From Bacteroidales bacterium (GTDB lineage: Bacteria; Bacteroidota; Bacteroidia; Bacteroidales; JAADJA01): a DNA stretch of 64,000 bases. This document shows, one piece after another, positions 1,496 through 8,771 of this stretch (positions are counted from its first letter, which is position 1; the number at the start of each line of letters is the position of its first letter). The translations under genes and the position numbers were made by a program. The DNA is taken from positions 124,001 to 188,000 of the forward strand of contig JAGQVE010000002.1 in the NCBI GenBank assembly GCA_020438105.1, given 5' to 3'. A model generated the notes under the pieces. The model ran no database searches. It was not told the DNA's origin and was given only the letters and a program-made list of their open reading frames with translations.

Positions 1496-2862
1496 TATTA
1501 AAGCTTAAACCGATCCTTTTTTTCATCAGTGTATTCTTACCAATGCTAAGCATTTTGGCAAACGACAGCACCTTTGTTGTTTATAAGTTCAACATCAAGG
1601 AAGAGATTGCAGCGCCTGTTCAACGTAAAACGCATGAGGCGTTTGAGGAAGCCCGCAAAATGCATGCTGATCTTATCCTCATTCACATGAACACTTACGG
1701 CGGGAGGCTCGATGCAGCCGACAGCATTCGTACGATGATACTTCGGTCAAAAATTCCGGTTTATGTTTTTATTGATAACAATGCGGCATCGGCCGGCGCA
1801 TTGATCTCCATTGCCTGCGATAGTATTTACATGACCACTGCCGCCAACATTGGCGCTGCCACCGTGGTGGATCAGTCGGGCAAACCGGTACCCGACAAAT
1901 ATCAGTCGTACATGCGGTCGATGATGCGTTCAACGGCTGAGTCAAAGGGTCGAGATCCGGATATTGCACAGGCGATGGTGGATCCCAGGATTTACATCGA
2001 AGGTATTATTGACACCGGAAAAGTTTTAACTTTCACGGCCAGTGAAGCGATGAAATTCGGGTTTTGTGAAGGTATTGCCGAATCGGTGCCCGAAGTGCTG
2101 ACAAAAGCAGGTGTAAAGGATTATACCATTGTTGAACAACAATTTTCATGGACCGATAATGTGATCCATTTCCTGATCAACCCATTTGTGAGCGGCATTC
2201 TTATCATGGTCATCATCGGCGGAATTTATTTCGAACTTCAAACGCCGGGAGTAGGCTTTCCTATCGCAGCCTCTGTTGTAGCGGCCCTTCTCTATTTTGC
2301 TCCGCTCTACATACAGGGAATGGCCGAAAACTGGGAAATCCTGCTGTTTATTGTAGGGGTTATTCTCATAGCGGTTGAAATATTTGCCATTCCCGGTTTT
2401 GGTGTAACCGGAGTACTCGGAATCATTTTCGTGCTTACCGGCTTAACCCTGAGCATGACCGGAAATATGGGCCTGGATTTTACGGGTGTTGCACTTACTG
2501 CATTGGTCAAATCCTTTTTCATAGTGGTCATTGCCATGTTTGCCTCCCTGATTCTCTCTTTCTATTTTGGCAAAAAAATACTCACCAGCACCATTTTCGG
2601 GCACCTCGCCCTTGATTCGGAACAACTCAAAGAAGCTGGATTTACCTCATCCGACAGCACATATCAATCGATGGTGGGCAATACGGGCGTGGCATTTACC
2701 GTGCTTCGCCCGGCCGGCAAGGTAAAAATTGGCGATGACATTTTTGATGCTACGGCAGAGGCTGGATTTATCGAAAAAGGCAAAAAGGTTAGGGTGACCG
2801 GCTATCAAACCTCCCAGCTTTTTGTAATCGCCATCGCCGAACTTGAAGGAGGAAATGAATGA
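1492..2862 (+). CDS. NfeD-family membrane-bound ClpP-class serine protease
   Basis: 456 residues. A signal peptide (about residues 1-23) is followed by a ClpP/SppA-like serine protease domain. The segment [14 protein letters not shown] holds the likely nucleophile serine. Four to five membrane helices (about residues 230-360) come next, then a C-terminal soluble OB-fold NfeD domain. This is the long NfeD form; known members cleave membrane proteins such as stomatins, but no stomatin/SPFH gene is adjacent here. It overlaps both neighbours by 4 nt (ATGA at 1492 and at 2859), so it is translated as part of the operon. Confidence 0.9.
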
Positions 2863-3362
2863 AGATAGAGATCATACGGGGCGATATAACCGCCCTGGAA
2901 ACCGATGCCATCGTAAATGCAGCCAACAACAGCCTGCTTGGCGGGGGCGGCGTTGACGGAGCCATTCATCGGGCGGCGGGACCGCAATTGCTTGAAGCTT
3001 GCAAACAACTGAACGGATGCCAAACAGGAGATGCTAAAATTACCCCCGGCTTTCATCTGCCTTCCAAATTTGTGATACACACCGTGGGGCCAGTTTGGCG
3101 AGGCGGAATCAATAATGAAGAAAACCTCCTGCGCTCCTGTTATTTAAAAAGCATGGAACTGGCCACCGCTAATCATTGCCAATCCATTGCATTTCCAAAC
3201 ATCAGCACCGGGGTTTATCATTTTCCGAAGGAAAAAGCAGCTGAAATTGCAGTAGAGACAATAAGATCATACATGCAGGAAGTTACACAACCCCGGCAGG
3301 TGTATTTTGTATGTTTTGATGCAGAAAACCATGATATTTACAAACGCTTGCTGAATCAATAA
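2859..3362 (+). CDS. Macrodomain protein, probable O-acetyl-ADP-ribose deacetylase
   Basis: A 167-residue single macrodomain of the YmdB/MacroD type. It shows [19 protein letters not shown] (residues 16-34) with the ADP-ribose-binding Asn and glycine loop, then HTVGPVW and [10 protein letters not shown], the second loop around the distal ribose. Family members remove acetyl from O-acetyl-ADP-ribose or mono-ADP-ribose from acidic residues in proteins. It overlaps the NfeD gene by 4 nt and ends the operon. It is the last ordinary chromosomal gene before the cassette array. Confidence 0.92.
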
Positions 3363-3496
3363 TTATCAACAAGCGAACATCCCCTCATGCTTACTTTCAA
3401 AAAAGGGTGCCTCCCCTGTTGCCGGTATCGATTTTTAATTTAGTTTAGTAGCACCAAAATTAAAAGCATGAAGAAAACAACAAAATCAATAATCCA

Positions 3497-3586
3497 TAAC
3501 AGCTTACTAAGTAAAAAAGCGGTTTTTATCACGTTTTTGTACCGTATATGGAAATTAACGTGATAAAAGCTGTTGATATATACTAG
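3497..3586 (+). other. Putative recombination site at the 5' border of the cassette array
   Basis: The 224-nt gap 3363-3586 has no gene. It contains a perfect 12-nt inverted repeat, TTTTATCACGTT (3524-3535) and AACGTGATAAAA (3557-3568), with 21 nt between the arms. AACAGC (3498-3503) and GCTGTT (3569-3574) add a second pair. The sequence ends in ACTAG^TTGGC, where the first cassette begins. It could be an attI-like site or the attC of a lost upstream cassette. That is inferred from position and symmetry. Confidence 0.4.
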
Positions 3587-3601
3587 TTGGCAAACATTAA
3601 A

Positions 3602-4024
3602 ATGAAAGTACTTGTAACGATATTAACTTCATTAATTCTTTTGGCTATGACCGATAAGAACAATCGGACTCTTCAAGGTGACTATTACGGTTCGTGGGCA
3701 AGAACAACTTGGGAGTATCACTTTAACAAAGACAATTCTTTTAGTTTTAAATCGAATGGACATTTTGGAAATACACGCTCTATTGGTAAATACTCAGTAA
3801 CAGGAGACACCTTGATTCTTAATTCTATTTTGAGCGATACGACTGATAGAAAAGGATTTTACAATTTTAAAAACGAGAAATTCTTGATTGATGGAGATTC
3901 TTGCATTATAAGCTTAAGTACGGGTTATGACTACTGTAAGACTCACTTGACAGAATCTAAAATTGAAAACTCTAATGATGTCATTTGGACAATAGAGCCT
4001 AGTAGAAAGAGAATTGAAAAATAA
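3602..4024 (+). CDS. Cassette 1: small exported protein of unknown function
   Basis: 140 residues from the ATG at 3602. A TTG at 3587 in the same frame would add five codons, but it is the first base triplet of the cassette after the crossover, so the ATG is preferred. A hydrophobic N-terminus (residues 1-16) suggests a signal peptide without a lipobox. The rest is rich in Gly, Tyr, Phe and Asn (QGDYYGSWARTTWEYHF, then a GKYSVTGDTLIL turn), a pattern seen in small lipocalin-like beta barrels. I do not recognise a family. The base composition is clearly more AT-rich than the operon before it. Confidence 0.7.
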   Translation: MKVLVTILTSLILLAMTDKNNRTLQGDYYGSWARTTWEYHFNKDNSFSFKSNGHFGNTRSIGKYSVTGDTLILNSILSDTTDRKGFYNFKNEKFLIDGDSCIISLSTGYDYCKTHLTESKIENSNDVIWTIEPSRKRIEK

Positions 4025-4028
4025 AAAC

Positions 4029-4161
4029 GTTTGCCAACACGGCATATAGCTTATGGCGGGTGAACGGCTACCAGCAAGGTTTTCGCTCCGTAGCCAGCTT
4101 TGGTTTCGGTGGACAGGAAAGTGCTTCGAAACCGCCACAAGCCATATGCAAACCGTTGTGC
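4029..4161 (+). other. attC1, recombination site of cassette 1
   Basis: GTTTGCCAAC (4029-4038) is the exact reverse complement of GTTGGCAAAC at the start of cassette 1 (3586-3595). The stem GCATATAGCTTATGGCGG (4042-4059) pairs with 4132-4149 at 16 of 18 positions. Short unpaired spacers lie between the outer box and the stem, as in known attC sites. The loop contains further small hairpins (GGCTAC with GTAGCC; GGTTTCGG with CGAAACC). The site ends in AAACCG^TTGTGCC, with crossover after 4155. Confidence 0.7.
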
Positions 4162-4195
4162 CCCATTAAAAAAAGACATTATAAATAGATAAATT

Positions 4196-5017
4196 ATGGA
4201 TATTGAAAAAATAAAAAATTACAACCAGAAAATGCTTGCAGCTTTTAGTACAATGATTGTAATAGCTGCTGGAATTGGACTGATTGCATTGATAATCTTT
4301 GTGATTTCCGAATTGATTCCGAATAAAAGACCAATGACTAATACTTTACTTGCGGACGAGAAGGTTGACGAATTAAAAAAAGATAGCCTTCGACAGCAAA
4401 TTATCTCATATGATTCGCCAAGACTTGTAGATACCTTGAATTTAATTTATTTATTACCTGTCAATGTTAAGACTCTTGAGAAACCTGAAAAAATGGATAA
4501 GGAAGTACTCGGACTTCTTGATATGGATTACGAAATGAGTTCTGGTCGAAAATTCTCAGGCAGGAGATTTTATGGAGCCTTTAATAATCTGATTGTTTAT
4601 GATTATAAAAACGGTACTTCTACCAAGATTAGTGATTCAAGATTTATCGGAACAGATTTATCGTTTGAATATTTTGATGATGAAATAATCATAGTGTTTA
4701 CAGGAGCAGCAAAGGATACTGACAAGGACAAAAGCATTACTCTGCTTGACTTTAAATCATTATTTGTCTATTCCCTTAAAACAAGAGAACTTAAAAAAGT
4801 AAGTCTTGACAATTCAACTGTTAATGAATTTAAGTACGTAGAAAATAAAAAAGATATTCTTATAACATTTGGATACGATAGGAATAAAAACAACAAGTTT
4901 GATTCTGACATTGAACCGACTTTTGTAATGAAATATGATTACACGAATGATAAGTTAATTCCGATAGTTGACAAAGAACTTGAAAAGGATATTCAAAAAA
5001 TTATTGATAAAAATTAA
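4196..5017 (+). CDS. Cassette 2: membrane-anchored protein with EF-hand-like loops
   Basis: 273 residues with one membrane helix near the N-terminus (about residues 13-39) and a large, probably periplasmic, domain. Two loops resemble calcium-binding EF-hands: DTDKDKSITLLD (about residues 180-191) and DRNKNNKFDSDIE (about 229-241). Both carry acidic or Asn/Ser side chains at alternating positions. The middle of the protein is beta-rich. No enzyme family is recognised. It starts 40 nt after the crossover at 4155 and ends one base before attC2, a compact cassette layout. Calcium binding is inferred from the loops only. Confidence 0.75.
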   Translation: MDIEKIKNYNQKMLAAFSTMIVIAAGIGLIALIIFVISELIPNKRPMTNTLLADEKVDELKKDSLRQQIISYDSPRLVDTLNLIYLLPVNVKTLEKPEKMDKEVLGLLDMDYEMSSGRKFSGRRFYGAFNNLIVYDYKNGTSTKISDSRFIGTDLSFEYFDDEIIIVFTGAAKDTDKDKSITLLDFKSLFVYSLKTRELKKVSLDNSTVNEFKYVENKKDILITFGYDRNKNNKFDSDIEPTFVMKYDYTNDKLIPIVDKELEKDIQKIIDKN

Positions 5018-5018
5018 C

Positions 5019-5199
5019 GGGGCACAAAACTAAATATAAGTAATAGCGGTTTCGGTGGGTATTCTGGCGGTTGTTTTTCAAATCAGCCCCACCAAATCTG
5101 CCGATTTGACTATTTAGATAAGGTGCAGCTTTGGCTACTTTGTAACTTGATATGAAACCGCTCTGAAGTCCGCTACTGCTCATATTATTACCGTTCACA
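5019..5199 (+). other. attC2, recombination site of cassette 2
   Basis: GGGGCACAAA (5019-5028) matches, at 9 of 10 bases, the reverse complement of GTTGTGCCCC at the start of cassette 2 (4155-4164). The stem ATATAAGTAATAGCGG (5034-5049) pairs with 5170-5185 at 13 of 16 positions. GGTGGG and CCCACC form an inner hairpin. The site ends in TTACCG^TTCACAG, with crossover after 5193. At about 175 nt this is a long attC. Confidence 0.65.
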
Positions 5200-5211
5200 G
5201 CATTTTGAGAA

Positions 5212-5796
5212 ATGAAAACCATTGAAGAGAAATATAAAGAATTCTATCATCTGGAATTTCCAAGTGAATTAAAAGGGGAAGAAATATTGGGAATAGATTT
5301 AGTATTGCTTGACTCTGAGACTGCAGGACTTATTGACAAATACATTAGTTATAAAGGAAAACTTACAAAACCTGACTTTGAATTACTTGAAATACTTAAC
5401 CAAGAATTGAAAACAGTAACAAAAGAATTAAAAGGAATTTACCGAACTTACTTTTCGACTTTGTGGAATTTATCAAATCAAGTTGTTTCAAAATTAAGTC
5501 AAACAAAACGATTTTTGAAAAATACGAAAGACGAAGAAATTCATAGAAAGTGGAAAAAGAACTTCAAAATAATTAGAGAAATACTAAATGAATGGGACCC
5601 ACTTGGAGTTGCAGATATGGTTGATGATGAATATGACGCAATTAATTTTTTAGCATATTCTGCTGTGATTAATAATGGAGAATTAAAAGAAATTAAAAAT
5701 GCTATTAATGGATATTTGACCAAGTCAATGGAAATTAATGCTTCTGAAAATGATATTGAAGAGATTGCAAGAAAGATAAAAAACGCTGTACAATAA
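5212..5796 (+). CDS. Cassette 3: soluble helical protein of unknown function
   Basis: 194 residues, no signal peptide and no membrane helix, strongly charged and probably almost all alpha-helical (many Lys, Glu, Leu and Ile in heptad-like runs). Visible landmarks are LLEILNQELKTVTKELKG and EWDPLGVADMVDDEYDAINF. The second resembles the small hypothetical proteins often annotated near toxin-antitoxin or phage genes, but I cannot name a family. The start lies 18 nt after the crossover at 5193. The stop codon falls inside the left end of attC3. Codons are very A-rich compared with the flanking housekeeping genes. Confidence 0.7.
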   Translation: MKTIEEKYKEFYHLEFPSELKGEEILGIDLVLLDSETAGLIDKYISYKGKLTKPDFELLEILNQELKTVTKELKGIYRTYFSTLWNLSNQVVSKLSQTKRFLKNTKDEEIHRKWKKNFKIIREILNEWDPLGVADMVDDEYDAINFLAYSAVINNGELKEIKNAINGYLTKSMEINASENDIEEIARKIKNAVQ

Positions 5797-5918
5797 CAAA
5801 TATAGTGCATTTGGCTGATAGAGCTATAAATGAAAATGATAGCAATAAATGAACATAGTTGTAAATTGAGAATTTGGAGTGTTGAAATGCCAAACGCACC
5901 ATATTCAAACCGTTAGTG
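5783..5918 (+). other. attC3, recombination site of cassette 3
   Basis: TATAGTGCATTTGGC (5801-5815) pairs with GCCAAACGCACCATA (5889-5903) at 13 of 15 positions. The outer box is weaker than in the other sites: GCTGT at 5785-5789 matches part of the reverse complement of cassette 3's start GTTCACAGC (5193-5201), then diverges. The right end AAACCG^TTAGTGC has the same CAAACCGTT as attC1, with crossover after 5912. Confidence 0.6.
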
Positions 5919-5986
5919 CTAATTTAACAAAAATTCCATACAGTTATTAAACTGATTTTTTGATATAAAACTTAAAAGAAGACACA

Positions 5987-6571
5987 ATGGATAGAAATAA
6001 GATAAAAGAAGAAATGGGAAATTTTAGAAAAGCTCCTATTTCAATAACCATTTCAGTTATAATATTATCCTTCTTAGTATATCTTTTTTTGGATAAAGTG
6101 GTATATAAAAAACAATTGGAAAACAAGGATTCTCAAATTGAATTACTAGAAAGACAATTAGACATTTATAAAGACAAGAAATATATCGTAGGAGAAACAA
6201 CATTTTCGCGATTATCAAATACTGAGCTGAAAAAGACAGCCAAGAAAAAATATGACAAGTTATTAGAAACTTACTTAAAATATAAAAGTTATGATACTAT
6301 CAGATTGAATCGCATATCTTCTTCTCGGGACTGGGATAAAATGATGGAGATTCAGGAAACACAAAGTAATTTTGGTTACATGATGGTTAATAATTATATG
6401 AATTTACATATGGTTGAGATAATATTGATTCGAGAACAAATTTTATTACGACTTCCAAAAGAAGAAGCAAAAAAATCCGATTTATTTGTTTATCAACATC
6501 CTACAAATCCATTAGGGTATAAAGATTTATTAGATGATTTTAATTCATTGATACTAAAATTACCAGAATAG
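5987..6571 (+). CDS. Cassette 4: membrane-anchored coiled-coil protein, possibly truncated
   Basis: 194 residues with a membrane helix (about residues 17-34) followed by a short coiled coil (KKQLENKDSQIELLERQLD) and a soluble helical domain; family not recognised. It starts 74 nt after the crossover at 5912. The stop TAG (6569-6571) coincides with the boundary of the group II intron fragment: the G at 6571 may belong to the intron. The original protein may therefore have been longer, and the attC expected after it (reverse complement of GTTAGTGCTAATT) is not found. Confidence 0.65.
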   Translation: MDRNKIKEEMGNFRKAPISITISVIILSFLVYLFLDKVVYKKQLENKDSQIELLERQLDIYKDKKYIVGETTFSRLSNTELKKTAKKKYDKLLETYLKYKSYDTIRLNRISSSRDWDKMMEIQETQSNFGYMMVNNYMNLHMVEIILIREQILLRLPKEEAKKSDLFVYQHPTNPLGYKDLLDDFNSLILKLPE

Positions 6572-6607
6572 TCGAGTAGGTAAAGGGGAGTTTCACCCCT
6601 AAACCTC

Positions 6608-6905
6608 TCACAGAACCGTACGTGAACCTCTCGATTCATACGGTTCTTCGTAATCAACCGAAGGTCTAAACCCAAGCAACCAATGGGGAAACAGGTAAGC
6701 ATAATGCTTTGATACCTGCCTCAGCCAAAGCATTGCCGTACGAAGGGATTTAGTCCTCTTAAAGCGTTTGTACTTGTTAAATGCCCACTTGACCATACGG
6801 CGGTTGAGCAACCTGAAAGCCTGCCGGAGCGCCGAAAGATGAAACTTCCCATAGTAATACAACCAGCCCCTGATCTTTGACTCTGTATCCTTCCCTGAAC
6901 TTCGG
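6608..6905 (-). pseudogene. C-terminal remnant of the intron reverse transcriptase/maturase
   Basis: About 95 codons match the maturase and C-terminal part of group II intron proteins: SKIRGWLYYYGKFHLSAL, then NRRMVKWAFNKYKRFKR, WLRQVSKHYAYLFPHWLLG and FRP. The catalytic polymerase domains are absent, so no active enzyme can be made. The frame is open from about 6905 but has no proper start codon at the break. The last codons overlap domain V, as is common in these introns. Confidence 0.8.
6612..6645 (-). ncRNA. Group II intron domain V hairpin
   Basis: A 34-nt hairpin on the minus strand begins GAACCGTATG, ends CGTACGGTTC, and has a GAGA-type loop. The length and shape are those of domain V. 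The usual first bases are GAGC, with the catalytic triad AGC; here they are GAAC, so the triad reads AAC. Confidence 0.7.
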
Positions 6906-6971: not shown

Positions 6972-7262
6972 ACGGTCAAAAAGAACAATGAAAAAATCAA
7001 TATATTCAGAAATTTGCTTAACCAAATAATTGAGAAAGTAAAAGTTGATGCATCAAAGATTTACATAAAAGGGTTGGTTGAGTTACTTTTTGAACAACCG
7101 TATTCAAAAATTGAATTTATTGTATATCAATTGGGCGAGGAGAGAAAGGCATCATCCAGATATCCAAAGGAGTTGGAGATAATAGGAATTCTTGAATCTC
7201 AAAATGTTGGAAGTGAGACTTTGTATATAAATAATAACTTGATTGAAATACTAAAAAAATAA
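6972..7262 (+). pseudogene. C-terminal fragment of a Fic-family protein
   Basis: An open frame after a TAA at 6969-6971 encodes about 96 residues. They resemble the C-terminal winged-helix tail of Bacteroidota Fic/DOC proteins: KGLVELLFEQPYSKIEF, then YPKELEIIGILES and SETLYINNNLIEILKK. The Fic core motif HPFxxGNGR and all of the catalytic domain are missing. A TTG at 7014 could start a shorter peptide. The loss of the 5' part fits a recombination event that also removed most of the adjacent intron. Confidence 0.6.
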
Positions 7263-7278
7263 AATCAATTATAACTAA

Positions 7279-7746
7279 ATGAACAATCATATAATATTAA
7301 ATCCGGTTGCTTCGGTAAAAAACACAAGGCAAGCGAAAATAGATGACAATTGGGGTGAAATAATTTCGGAGATAGAGTTGGCGCCCAATATACCAATCGA
7401 AAGCCTCGACGGCATTGAATCATTTTCGCATTTGGAAATCATCTTTTACTTTGATAAAGCCACCAAAACGATTACAGGGAGCGAACATCCAAGGGAAAAT
7501 CCAAACTGGCCAAAAGTTGGAATTTTTGCACAACGAAAAAAAGACCGACCCAACCATCTCGGCTTAACCATTGTTAAACTACTTGGCAAACACGGAAAAA
7601 CACTGACCGTTTCTTATCTTGATGCAATCGATGGAACTCCTGTGCTTGACATAAAGCCCGTTTTTGAAGCTTACTTGCCTGTGGGCAAAATAAAGGAACC
7701 TGAGTGGTCAAAAGAATTGATGAGAAACTATTACAACAAGGAATGA
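7279..7746 (+). CDS. trmO: TrmO-family tRNA (t6A37-N6) methyltransferase
   Basis: A 155-residue member of the TsaA/TrmO (UPF0066) beta-barrel methyltransferases, which use SAM to methylate t6A at position 37 of tRNA-Thr. Recognisable blocks are FSHLEIIFYF, VGIFAQRKKDRPNHLGLT and VSYLDAIDGTPVLDIKP. The block usually written RPNP reads RPNH here, so activity on the standard substrate is not certain. It starts 16 nt after the fic remnant, and no attC-like site follows it. It may be an old resident or an accessory gene. Confidence 0.75.
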   Translation: MNNHIILNPVASVKNTRQAKIDDNWGEIISEIELAPNIPIESLDGIESFSHLEIIFYFDKATKTITGSEHPRENPNWPKVGIFAQRKKDRPNHLGLTIVKLLGKHGKTLTVSYLDAIDGTPVLDIKPVFEAYLPVGKIKEPEWSKELMRNYYNKE

Positions 7747-7841: not shown

Positions 7842-8771
7842 TTAATGCCTGAGTTTAGCCGCAAACTCAACCGGGATATAGTTTTCCAGTGATTCGCAAA
7901 CAGCCGATCCAAATGCAACTCCAATATTTAACAGTGTTTCCCATTCGTGTTTTTTCAATGAAAATAAGTCGTTTTTATTAAGGTGCAATTTACATAGTCC
8001 GTAAATCAAACCTGCGTTAAAAGAATCACCGGCACCGATGGTGCTCACCGTGTTGTTAAAGGGAGGGTCAACCTTTACATTCAGCCTTTCCGATTTAAAA
8101 TGAACCGGATTTCCCCCATCGGTCATGATCATCAATTCGCAACCCGATTCCTGCACATGATAAAAAGCCTCCTGCGTGTTCCAGGCATTAAAGATCATTT
8201 GAAAATCGGGAAGCGATCCACGCACGATATCTGCCATTCCAATATTTTCAGTTACAAAAGGCATCACCTTTGCAAGCTCAGCCAGGTGGGGTTTCCTGAA
8301 GTTTGGATCATAAATAACAATGGCATCTGCATGTTTGGCATTTTGTAACAATTCCTTTAGAAATGGCCGCGTTGCCGGGTCGAGGGAGGCAAAGGACCCG
8401 AATATTACGATATCACCCGGTTTAAACTTTGGCATTTGAATTTGATACCGCTTTGCCGGGTAATGCTTGTAAAAGGTGTATCTGGCTTCATTTTCATCAT
8501 CCAAAAAAGCAATCGCAAGTGCAGTTTTGCCATGGTCAAAACGGTAGATATACCGGGTTCCCACCTCATTGTTCTCCAGAAACCGGATCACCTGCTCCCC
8601 TACATCATCAAGGCCGATTTCGGAAAGCAGTTCCACATGTAGTCCAAGACGGCCCAGGCTTACAGCAGTATTTAGCATTGCGCCACCTGCTTTAGCGCCC
8701 ATAGCTGCATCTCCCTTTAAAATTATATCAAAAACGGTTTCACCAATGGAATAGATACGCTTGTTTTGCAT
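7842..8771 (-). CDS. PfkB-family sugar kinase
   Basis: A 309-residue ribokinase/fructokinase-fold kinase. The N-terminal glycine motif is AKAGGAMLNTAVSLGRLG (residues 26-43). The C-terminal signature STIGAGDSFNAGLIYGL carries the catalytic Asp. Sequences of this type in Bacteroidota are usually called fructokinases; the substrate cannot be fixed from sequence. The ATG at 8771 lies only about 5 nt after a well-formed promoter, so the mRNA may be nearly leaderless. The gene is convergent with trmO. Confidence 0.85.
   Translation of the reverse strand: MQNKRIYSIGETVFDIILKGDAAMGAKAGGAMLNTAVSLGRLGLHVELLSEIGLDDVGEQVIRFLENNEVGTRYIYRFDHGKTALAIAFLDDENEARYTFYKHYPAKRYQIQMPKFKPGDIVIFGSFASLDPATRPFLKELLQNAKHADAIVIYDPNFRKPHLAELAKVMPFVTENIGMADIVRGSLPDFQMIFNAWNTQEAFYHVQESGCELMIMTDGGNPVHFKSERLNVKVDPPFNNTVSTIGAGDSFNAGLIYGLCKLHLNKNDLFSLKKHEWETLLNIGVAFGSAVCESLENYIPVEFAAKLRH

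Follow-up and report, generated by a model that had tools for sequence, protein, structure and literature searches.

A probable mobile-cassette array of an integron-like, I2-less lineage of Bacteroidota in a Bacteroidales chromosome

The window, that is, the whole stretch of 64 kb analysed here (G000:C66:124001-188000), comes from a Bacteroidales genome of 4.3 Mb that is 90.6% complete. Framed by a Macro-domain gene and a PfkB gene, it carries four one-gene blocks with three long hairpins between them (Table 1). The original prediction had described four one-gene cassettes separated by palindromes; the four cassettes hold, but the complete sites are three, cassette 4 being without a site of its own, and cassette 1 begins at 3586, just outside the proposed start of 3587. 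The product of cassette 1 is a small, predicted exported protein, and that of cassette 2 has an N-terminal membrane segment and is of unknown family. None of the window cassette proteins matched a Pfam family over the cut-off or had relatives among the proteins of the collected loci. The 3' end of a group II intron abuts the stop codon of cassette 4, with a maturase remnant at 6608-6862 (a weak GIIM match). Beyond the intron remnant, at 7014-7746, a small ORF that matches a SoFic-like C-terminal domain is found together with a TrmO-like gene; relatives have neither at this place. Since the Macro and PfkB genes are adjacent in congeners G014, G006, and G008, and a different gene (828 aa) lies between them in the closest congener, G012, we regard the cassette block as an insertion.

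Table 1. Features of the cassette array and its flanks (window coordinates; R1, covariance model of the site class).
Feature	Position	Strand	Remarks
Macro-domain gene, upstream chromosomal flank	2859..3362	+	neighbour of the PfkB gene in relatives that lack the insertion
Putative attI-like landing element, inverted repeat TATCACGTT ... AACGTGATA	3445..3585	+	core AACGTGATAAAAGCTGTTGATATATACTA ends exactly at the crossover GTT
Cassette 1	3586..4154	+	GTT 3586 to GTT 4155; ORF 3602-4024
Site 1	4029..4157	+	foot GTTTGCCAAC 4029-4038, hairpin, CAAACC then crossover GTT; R1 89.3 bits, bottom strand
Cassette 2	4155..5192	+	ORF 4196-5017, 273 aa
Site 2, long loop	5019..5195	+	foot GGGGCACAA 5019-5027; R1 44 bits
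Cassette 3	5193..5911	+	ORF 5212-5796, 194 aa, unknown
Site 3	~5782..5914	+	foot AAAACGCTGT..., CAAACC then crossover GTT; R1 80.5 bits
Cassette 4	5912..6571	+	ORF 5987-6571, 194 aa, unknown; own site missing
Group II intron 3' end, domains V-VI	6571..6648	-	RF00029, 57.1 bits against a gathering threshold of 40
PfkB-type sugar kinase, downstream chromosomal flank	7842..8771	-	

The pairing of each left arm with the start of its own cassette, on which the original prediction had relied, was borne out. The foot of site 1 is perfectly reverse-complementary to the opening 10 nt of cassette 1 (GTT at 3586), and the foot of site 2 pairs over 9 nt with the start of cassette 2 (GTT at 4155), whereas against the starts of the other cassettes these two feet match over 6 nt at most. 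At site 3, the foot pairs with the start of cassette 3 with an interruption (AAAACGCTGT... against AAAATGCTGTGAAC), and it also matches its own cassette only. For a GTT-initial 14-mer and a foot of 21 nt, a match of at least 9 nt is expected by chance with P ~0.0005 and one of at least 10 nt with P ~0.0001. The block has in this way the structure of a tandem array of cassettes, each site pairing at its foot with the beginning of the cassette that it belongs to. A detector combining a cassette start, its complement at the foot of the next hairpin, the hairpin itself, and chaining recovered sites 1 and 2 of the window as a linked chain and, as a positive control, arrays of the known type beside IntI in other genomes of the phylum. 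As linking by exact 9-mers was too strict, it was relaxed, with the chains serving as a control; the detector led to arrays of the window type in relatives, one of which, at L126, comprises seven sites or more. That the hairpins are ordinary intergenic palindromes, REP/MITE-like or terminators, lying among unrelated genes seems to us practically negligible as an explanation: intergenic palindromes are common and the window cassettes have no known function, but each foot pairs with its own cassette start alone, shuffled windows gave no chain, and duplicates in a Persicobacter plasmid, described below, end at the crossover.

The original prediction had proposed an attC covariance search as a check, and its outcome depends on the model. 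R1 is a covariance model of the window's own site class, in which site 1 was the sole window site used for training. In the 64-kb window it finds exactly three sites, at 4036-4157, 5792-5914, and 5026-5195 (89, 80, and 44 bits), the untrained sites 3 and 2 having E-values of 1.6e-16 and 4e-8, and the next-best match in the 64 kb reaches 10.6 bits (E 2.2). R2 was built here from 22 IntI-linked attC sites of the phylum and is not the model of IntegronFinder; it finds 44 sites at IntI loci and, at E<=10, none in either the window or six loci bearing window-class arrays, including a stretch with ~45 sites. Taking a CALIN as at least two attC sites with no nearby integrase, the window has such sites as seen by R1 and none as seen by R2. 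R1 matches are present in 84 of 119 relatives, and the same model yielded four sites, all from one small L079 group, at 22 IntI loci and 31 loci of distant Xer-like recombinases.

The fold of these sites is distinctive. The arms of 34 oriented sites pair with no extra bases, and in place of extrahelical bases there are wobble positions, with A on the left and C on the right 61 times versus one reversed case, usually at two positions five apart; further loci gave 64 versus one. Extra T and G bases of the classical kind are seen in the IntI-linked sites of the phylum. An alignment of 46 sites has changes on both sides in 18 of 19 stem pairs, and one stem pair is fixed as G.U in 45 of them. This fixed G.T wobble can be formed by the bottom strand only, the top strand having an A.C mismatch, and the bottom hairpin is the more stable one in 57 of 64 sites (mean -14.8 versus -12.5 kcal/mol), a difference that IntI-linked sites do not have. 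Site length is 117-128 nt with a mode of 123 in the set without long loops, and the crossover arms differ freely between cassettes. Classical attC core boxes are RYYYAAC/GTTRRRY. The crossover boxes of the window read GTTGGCA, GTTGTGC, GTTCACA, and GTTAGTG; none has the GTTRRRY core, and GTT/AAC alone is conserved.

In relatives, arrays of the window class lie directly beside a tyrosine recombinase, with the array on its 3' side. The alignment places box I and box II of this enzyme 91 residues apart, versus 133 in IntI, such that the I2 insertion is absent. We collected 63 Bacteroidota loci of this I2-less recombinase, 28 of which extend 2.5 kb or more beyond the gene on its 3' side; a same-strand array is found 3' in 20 of these 28 well-flanked loci and a divergent array in two more, whereas six have no site. 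Over all 63 loci, 80 sites follow the gene 3' on its own strand, no 3' site is on the opposite strand, six are divergent and one is elsewhere. Detection in these counts is favoured by R1 training sites taken from some of the same loci, although the strand of a site and its placement relative to the gene played no part in the training; no site of the class was found in 189 kb of control loci. In 30 loci the contig ends within 1.5 kb 3' of the enzyme, and in three it ends equally close on the 5' side, an excess expected if repeated arrays break assemblies. At the level of genomes, sites occur in 50 of 54 enzyme-bearing relatives versus 34 of 65 in which the enzyme was not detected (n=119, P 8e-7), and, among the 30 genomes bearing IntI, in 7 of 9 with the I2-less enzyme versus 5 of 21 without it (P 0.0125). 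Carriers include Zunongwangia mangrovi, Algoriphagus ornithinivorans, Algibacter onchidii, Winogradskyella ursingii, Flavobacterium enshiense, and Seonamhaeicola aphaedonensis, and phage records gave one weak integrase match.

In the tree, IntI forms one clade (support 100/99) with all 21 array-linked enzymes outside it, and these 21 group as a single clade in 50% of the bootstraps. Among solved structures, XerA is the closest, followed by Vibrio IntI. A structure model of the integrase (pLDDT 80, pTM 0.52) was used for fold family and secondary structure alone, and, given this pTM, the packing of its domains is unsure. Array-linked integrases have, ahead of the core-binding domain, an N-terminal domain (residues 1-80 of L162) for which Pfam gave no match, and some of their relatives reach 500-700 aa. 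At G005:C87 (L161, L266), the integrase and its array are present twice as a long perfect inverted repeat, which is probably an assembly artefact.

One could still argue for a classical CALIN, in which an ordinary IntI acts in trans on divergent attC sites and the neighbouring I2-less recombinases are bystanders. IntI is indeed encoded in 105 of 395 genomes of the phylum and in congener G003, sites are found in the 34 relatives without a detected I2-less integrase, and G064 has a small R1 array 4-6 kb from an IntI. Nevertheless, we give this explanation very little credence: R2, which does find sites at IntI loci, finds none of these at E<=10; R1 finds no IntI-linked array save the separate L079 group; and the adjacency of the I2-less enzyme and the same-strand order speak for a different partner. 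The IntI of G003 (L012:8493-9461, 381 bits) is a true one in an apparent In0; no R1-type or IntI-type array was detected beside it, the new-class sites of G003 lying on other contigs, and it was dropped as a likely partner of the window array. The original prediction of a CALIN is consequently retained in part. An integron-like array without a local integrase is upheld by the own-end pairing, the insertion, and the lack of a cognate integrase, but the idea of classical attC sites awaiting an IntI has to be given up, as there are neither extrahelical bases nor a GTTRRRY core, the IntI-type model is blind to the sites, and the enzyme linked to them in relatives is not IntI but an I2-less one related to XerA and IntI.

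A further possibility is that the I2-less enzyme uses double-stranded sites in the manner of Xer and dif, with the hairpin serving termination or intron targeting only. The joint lack of I2 and of the extrahelical bases, those that I2 recognises, and the closeness of the enzyme to XerA favour it, yet the long stem covaries, its fixed G.T pair is available to the bottom strand only, which folds more stably in most sites, and the crossover arms vary freely between cassettes, as in folded attC. On balance we find the double-stranded reading unlikely, and the integron-like reading, with recombination of a folded bottom strand, is the one that we develop below.

The behaviour of cassettes as units can be followed in pPP2, a closed plasmid of Persicobacter psychrovividus NBRC 101262, which has 126 R1 sites on one strand over ~100 kb (NZ_AP025294.1:303376-403528; L278, L281, L282), with a median site spacing of 686 bp. 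At the head of the array, an I2-less enzyme of 396 aa spans the origin of the record. Among the cassettes there are 28 near-identical duplicate pairs encoding hypothetical proteins, and 54 of their 56 ends lie no more than 25 nt from a crossover, versus 6% expected. Because the ends of the duplicates coincide with sites, the cassettes are the unit of copying or movement.

In the genome of the window itself, the proposed search turned up further sites but no IntI. Against the IntI model, there are only matches at the level of XerC and XerD, both of which the cell encodes; ten R1 sites at E below 1e-5 are spread over seven contigs. Outside the window, sites of the class lie at G000:C77:42411-44156 and on contigs C111, C120, C122, C55, and C110, and self-complementary cassette ends are visible on C77, C111, and C120. 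The profile of the I2-less recombinase gave a best match of 3e-53, which is at Xer level, so no cognate integrase was found in this 90.6%-complete genome, and no integrase relics were found in the window or in the other array loci of the genome. Two leads were discarded along the way: CAAACCGTT is not enriched genome-wide (66 occurrences, the reversed pattern having 106), and two candidate pairs, from C143 and C83, fall within ordinary genes.

The ~140 nt preceding cassette 1, which we call the landing element, recur on C111 with 73% identity overall and near-perfect identity over the last 30 nt. Copies occur at four places in this genome, window included, and at three in congener G012, those beyond the window and C111 (two and three, respectively) being shorter or weaker. 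The similarity of the copies reaches the GTT, after which the sequence differs, with one exception (L287). An R1 site lies downstream in four of the six other places, and the remaining two belong to short loci close to contig ends. The site next to the G012 integrase reads GTGATATAACGA up to the GTT, resembling TTGATATATACTA up to the GTT in the window. From this arrangement, we infer that the landing element may be an attI-like entry point. Whether the window array is still alive bears on its activity, not on its identity. It could be a dead relic of a real system, immovable by any enzyme of the lineage, given that its genome has no integrase, cassette 4 has lost its site, and the foot of site 3 is degraded. 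Against this, sites 1 and 2 appear intact, the genome has ten sites and four landing elements at scattered places, and congeners G005, G008, and G012 have intact I2-less integrases; we put the relic slightly below even odds.

Taken together, we propose with a probability of roughly 0.86 that the block in the window is a small mobile-cassette array of an integron-like system widespread in Bacteroidota that operates with an I2-less recombinase, and we name it the I2-less integron lineage of Bacteroidota. The proposal builds on the conservation of the site class and its fold, the array structure, the recombinase adjacent to arrays in relatives, and the cassettes as units of duplication. We also consider it fairly probable, though with less assurance, that these elements are a second integron family, with an XerA-like recombinase devoid of I2, bottom-strand hairpins, and strand choice by the fixed G.T wobble. 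As judged from sequence, cassettes would recombine at the GTT that terminates each site. The site would fold as a uniform hairpin of ~123 nt, preferably from the bottom strand, and the conserved G.T wobble, A.C on top, would direct strand choice in place of extrahelical bases. The I2-less recombinase would be the catalyst, cutting the single-stranded bottom hairpin at the GTT and joining it to the attI-like element or to another hairpin site. The window cassettes were probably placed at the attI-like element by such an enzyme, since lost or acting in trans.

I2 has been named as the distinguishing feature of IntI (PMC9024848), and it is reported to be required for capturing cassettes and to be absent from other proteins (PMC7790495), so that hairpin recombination lacking I2 needs another solution. 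An integrase survey chose its sequences by the I2 domain (PMC2426708), and IntegronFinder gave at first In0 only in Bacteroidetes and later a complete integron in Salinibacter (PMC9024848). As integrons are recognised by the I2 domain and classical attC folds, a lineage with cassette arrays, plasmids of superintegron size, and no I2 would have been overlooked by survey design. We found no description of it in the full-text literature searched, a scope that leaves aside preprints and most subscription papers, and an I2-less gene-capture system is apparently undescribed so far. The lineage would broaden the gene-capture repertoire of a major phylum, and it makes testable the standing question of whether I2 and extrahelical bases are needed for single-strand recombination. 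If the reading as a second integron family is true, the I2 helix would be just one of two ways in which cassettes are recombined as single strands.

Compared with known systems, the lineage shares with integrons the tandem one-gene cassettes, the pairing of the foot with its own cassette start, the GTT crossover, an integrase at the head of the array, and large arrays with duplicated cassettes. It differs from them in that the integrase lacks I2 and falls outside the IntI clade, in that the sites have a uniform length near 123 nt and a fixed G.T wobble, with no extrahelical bases and, in the window, no GTTRRRY core, and in that the array lies mostly 3' on the integrase strand. XerA and Xer recombinases (NF040815; PDB 5hxy, 4a8e) provide the closest solved structures by sequence and fold and likewise have no I2, but the array-linked enzymes mostly have an extra N-terminal domain of ~80 residues and are tied to cassette arrays, not to dif. 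As for group IIC-attC introns, a group II intron on a Chryseobacterium plasmid (L279:7381-9355) begins at the base of the bottom-strand hairpin, as IIC-attC introns do at classical attC, and the window remnant at 6571-6648, antisense to the array and ending at the stop of cassette 4, is placed consistently with this if its 5' part has been lost; here, however, the target hairpin is a new class of site.
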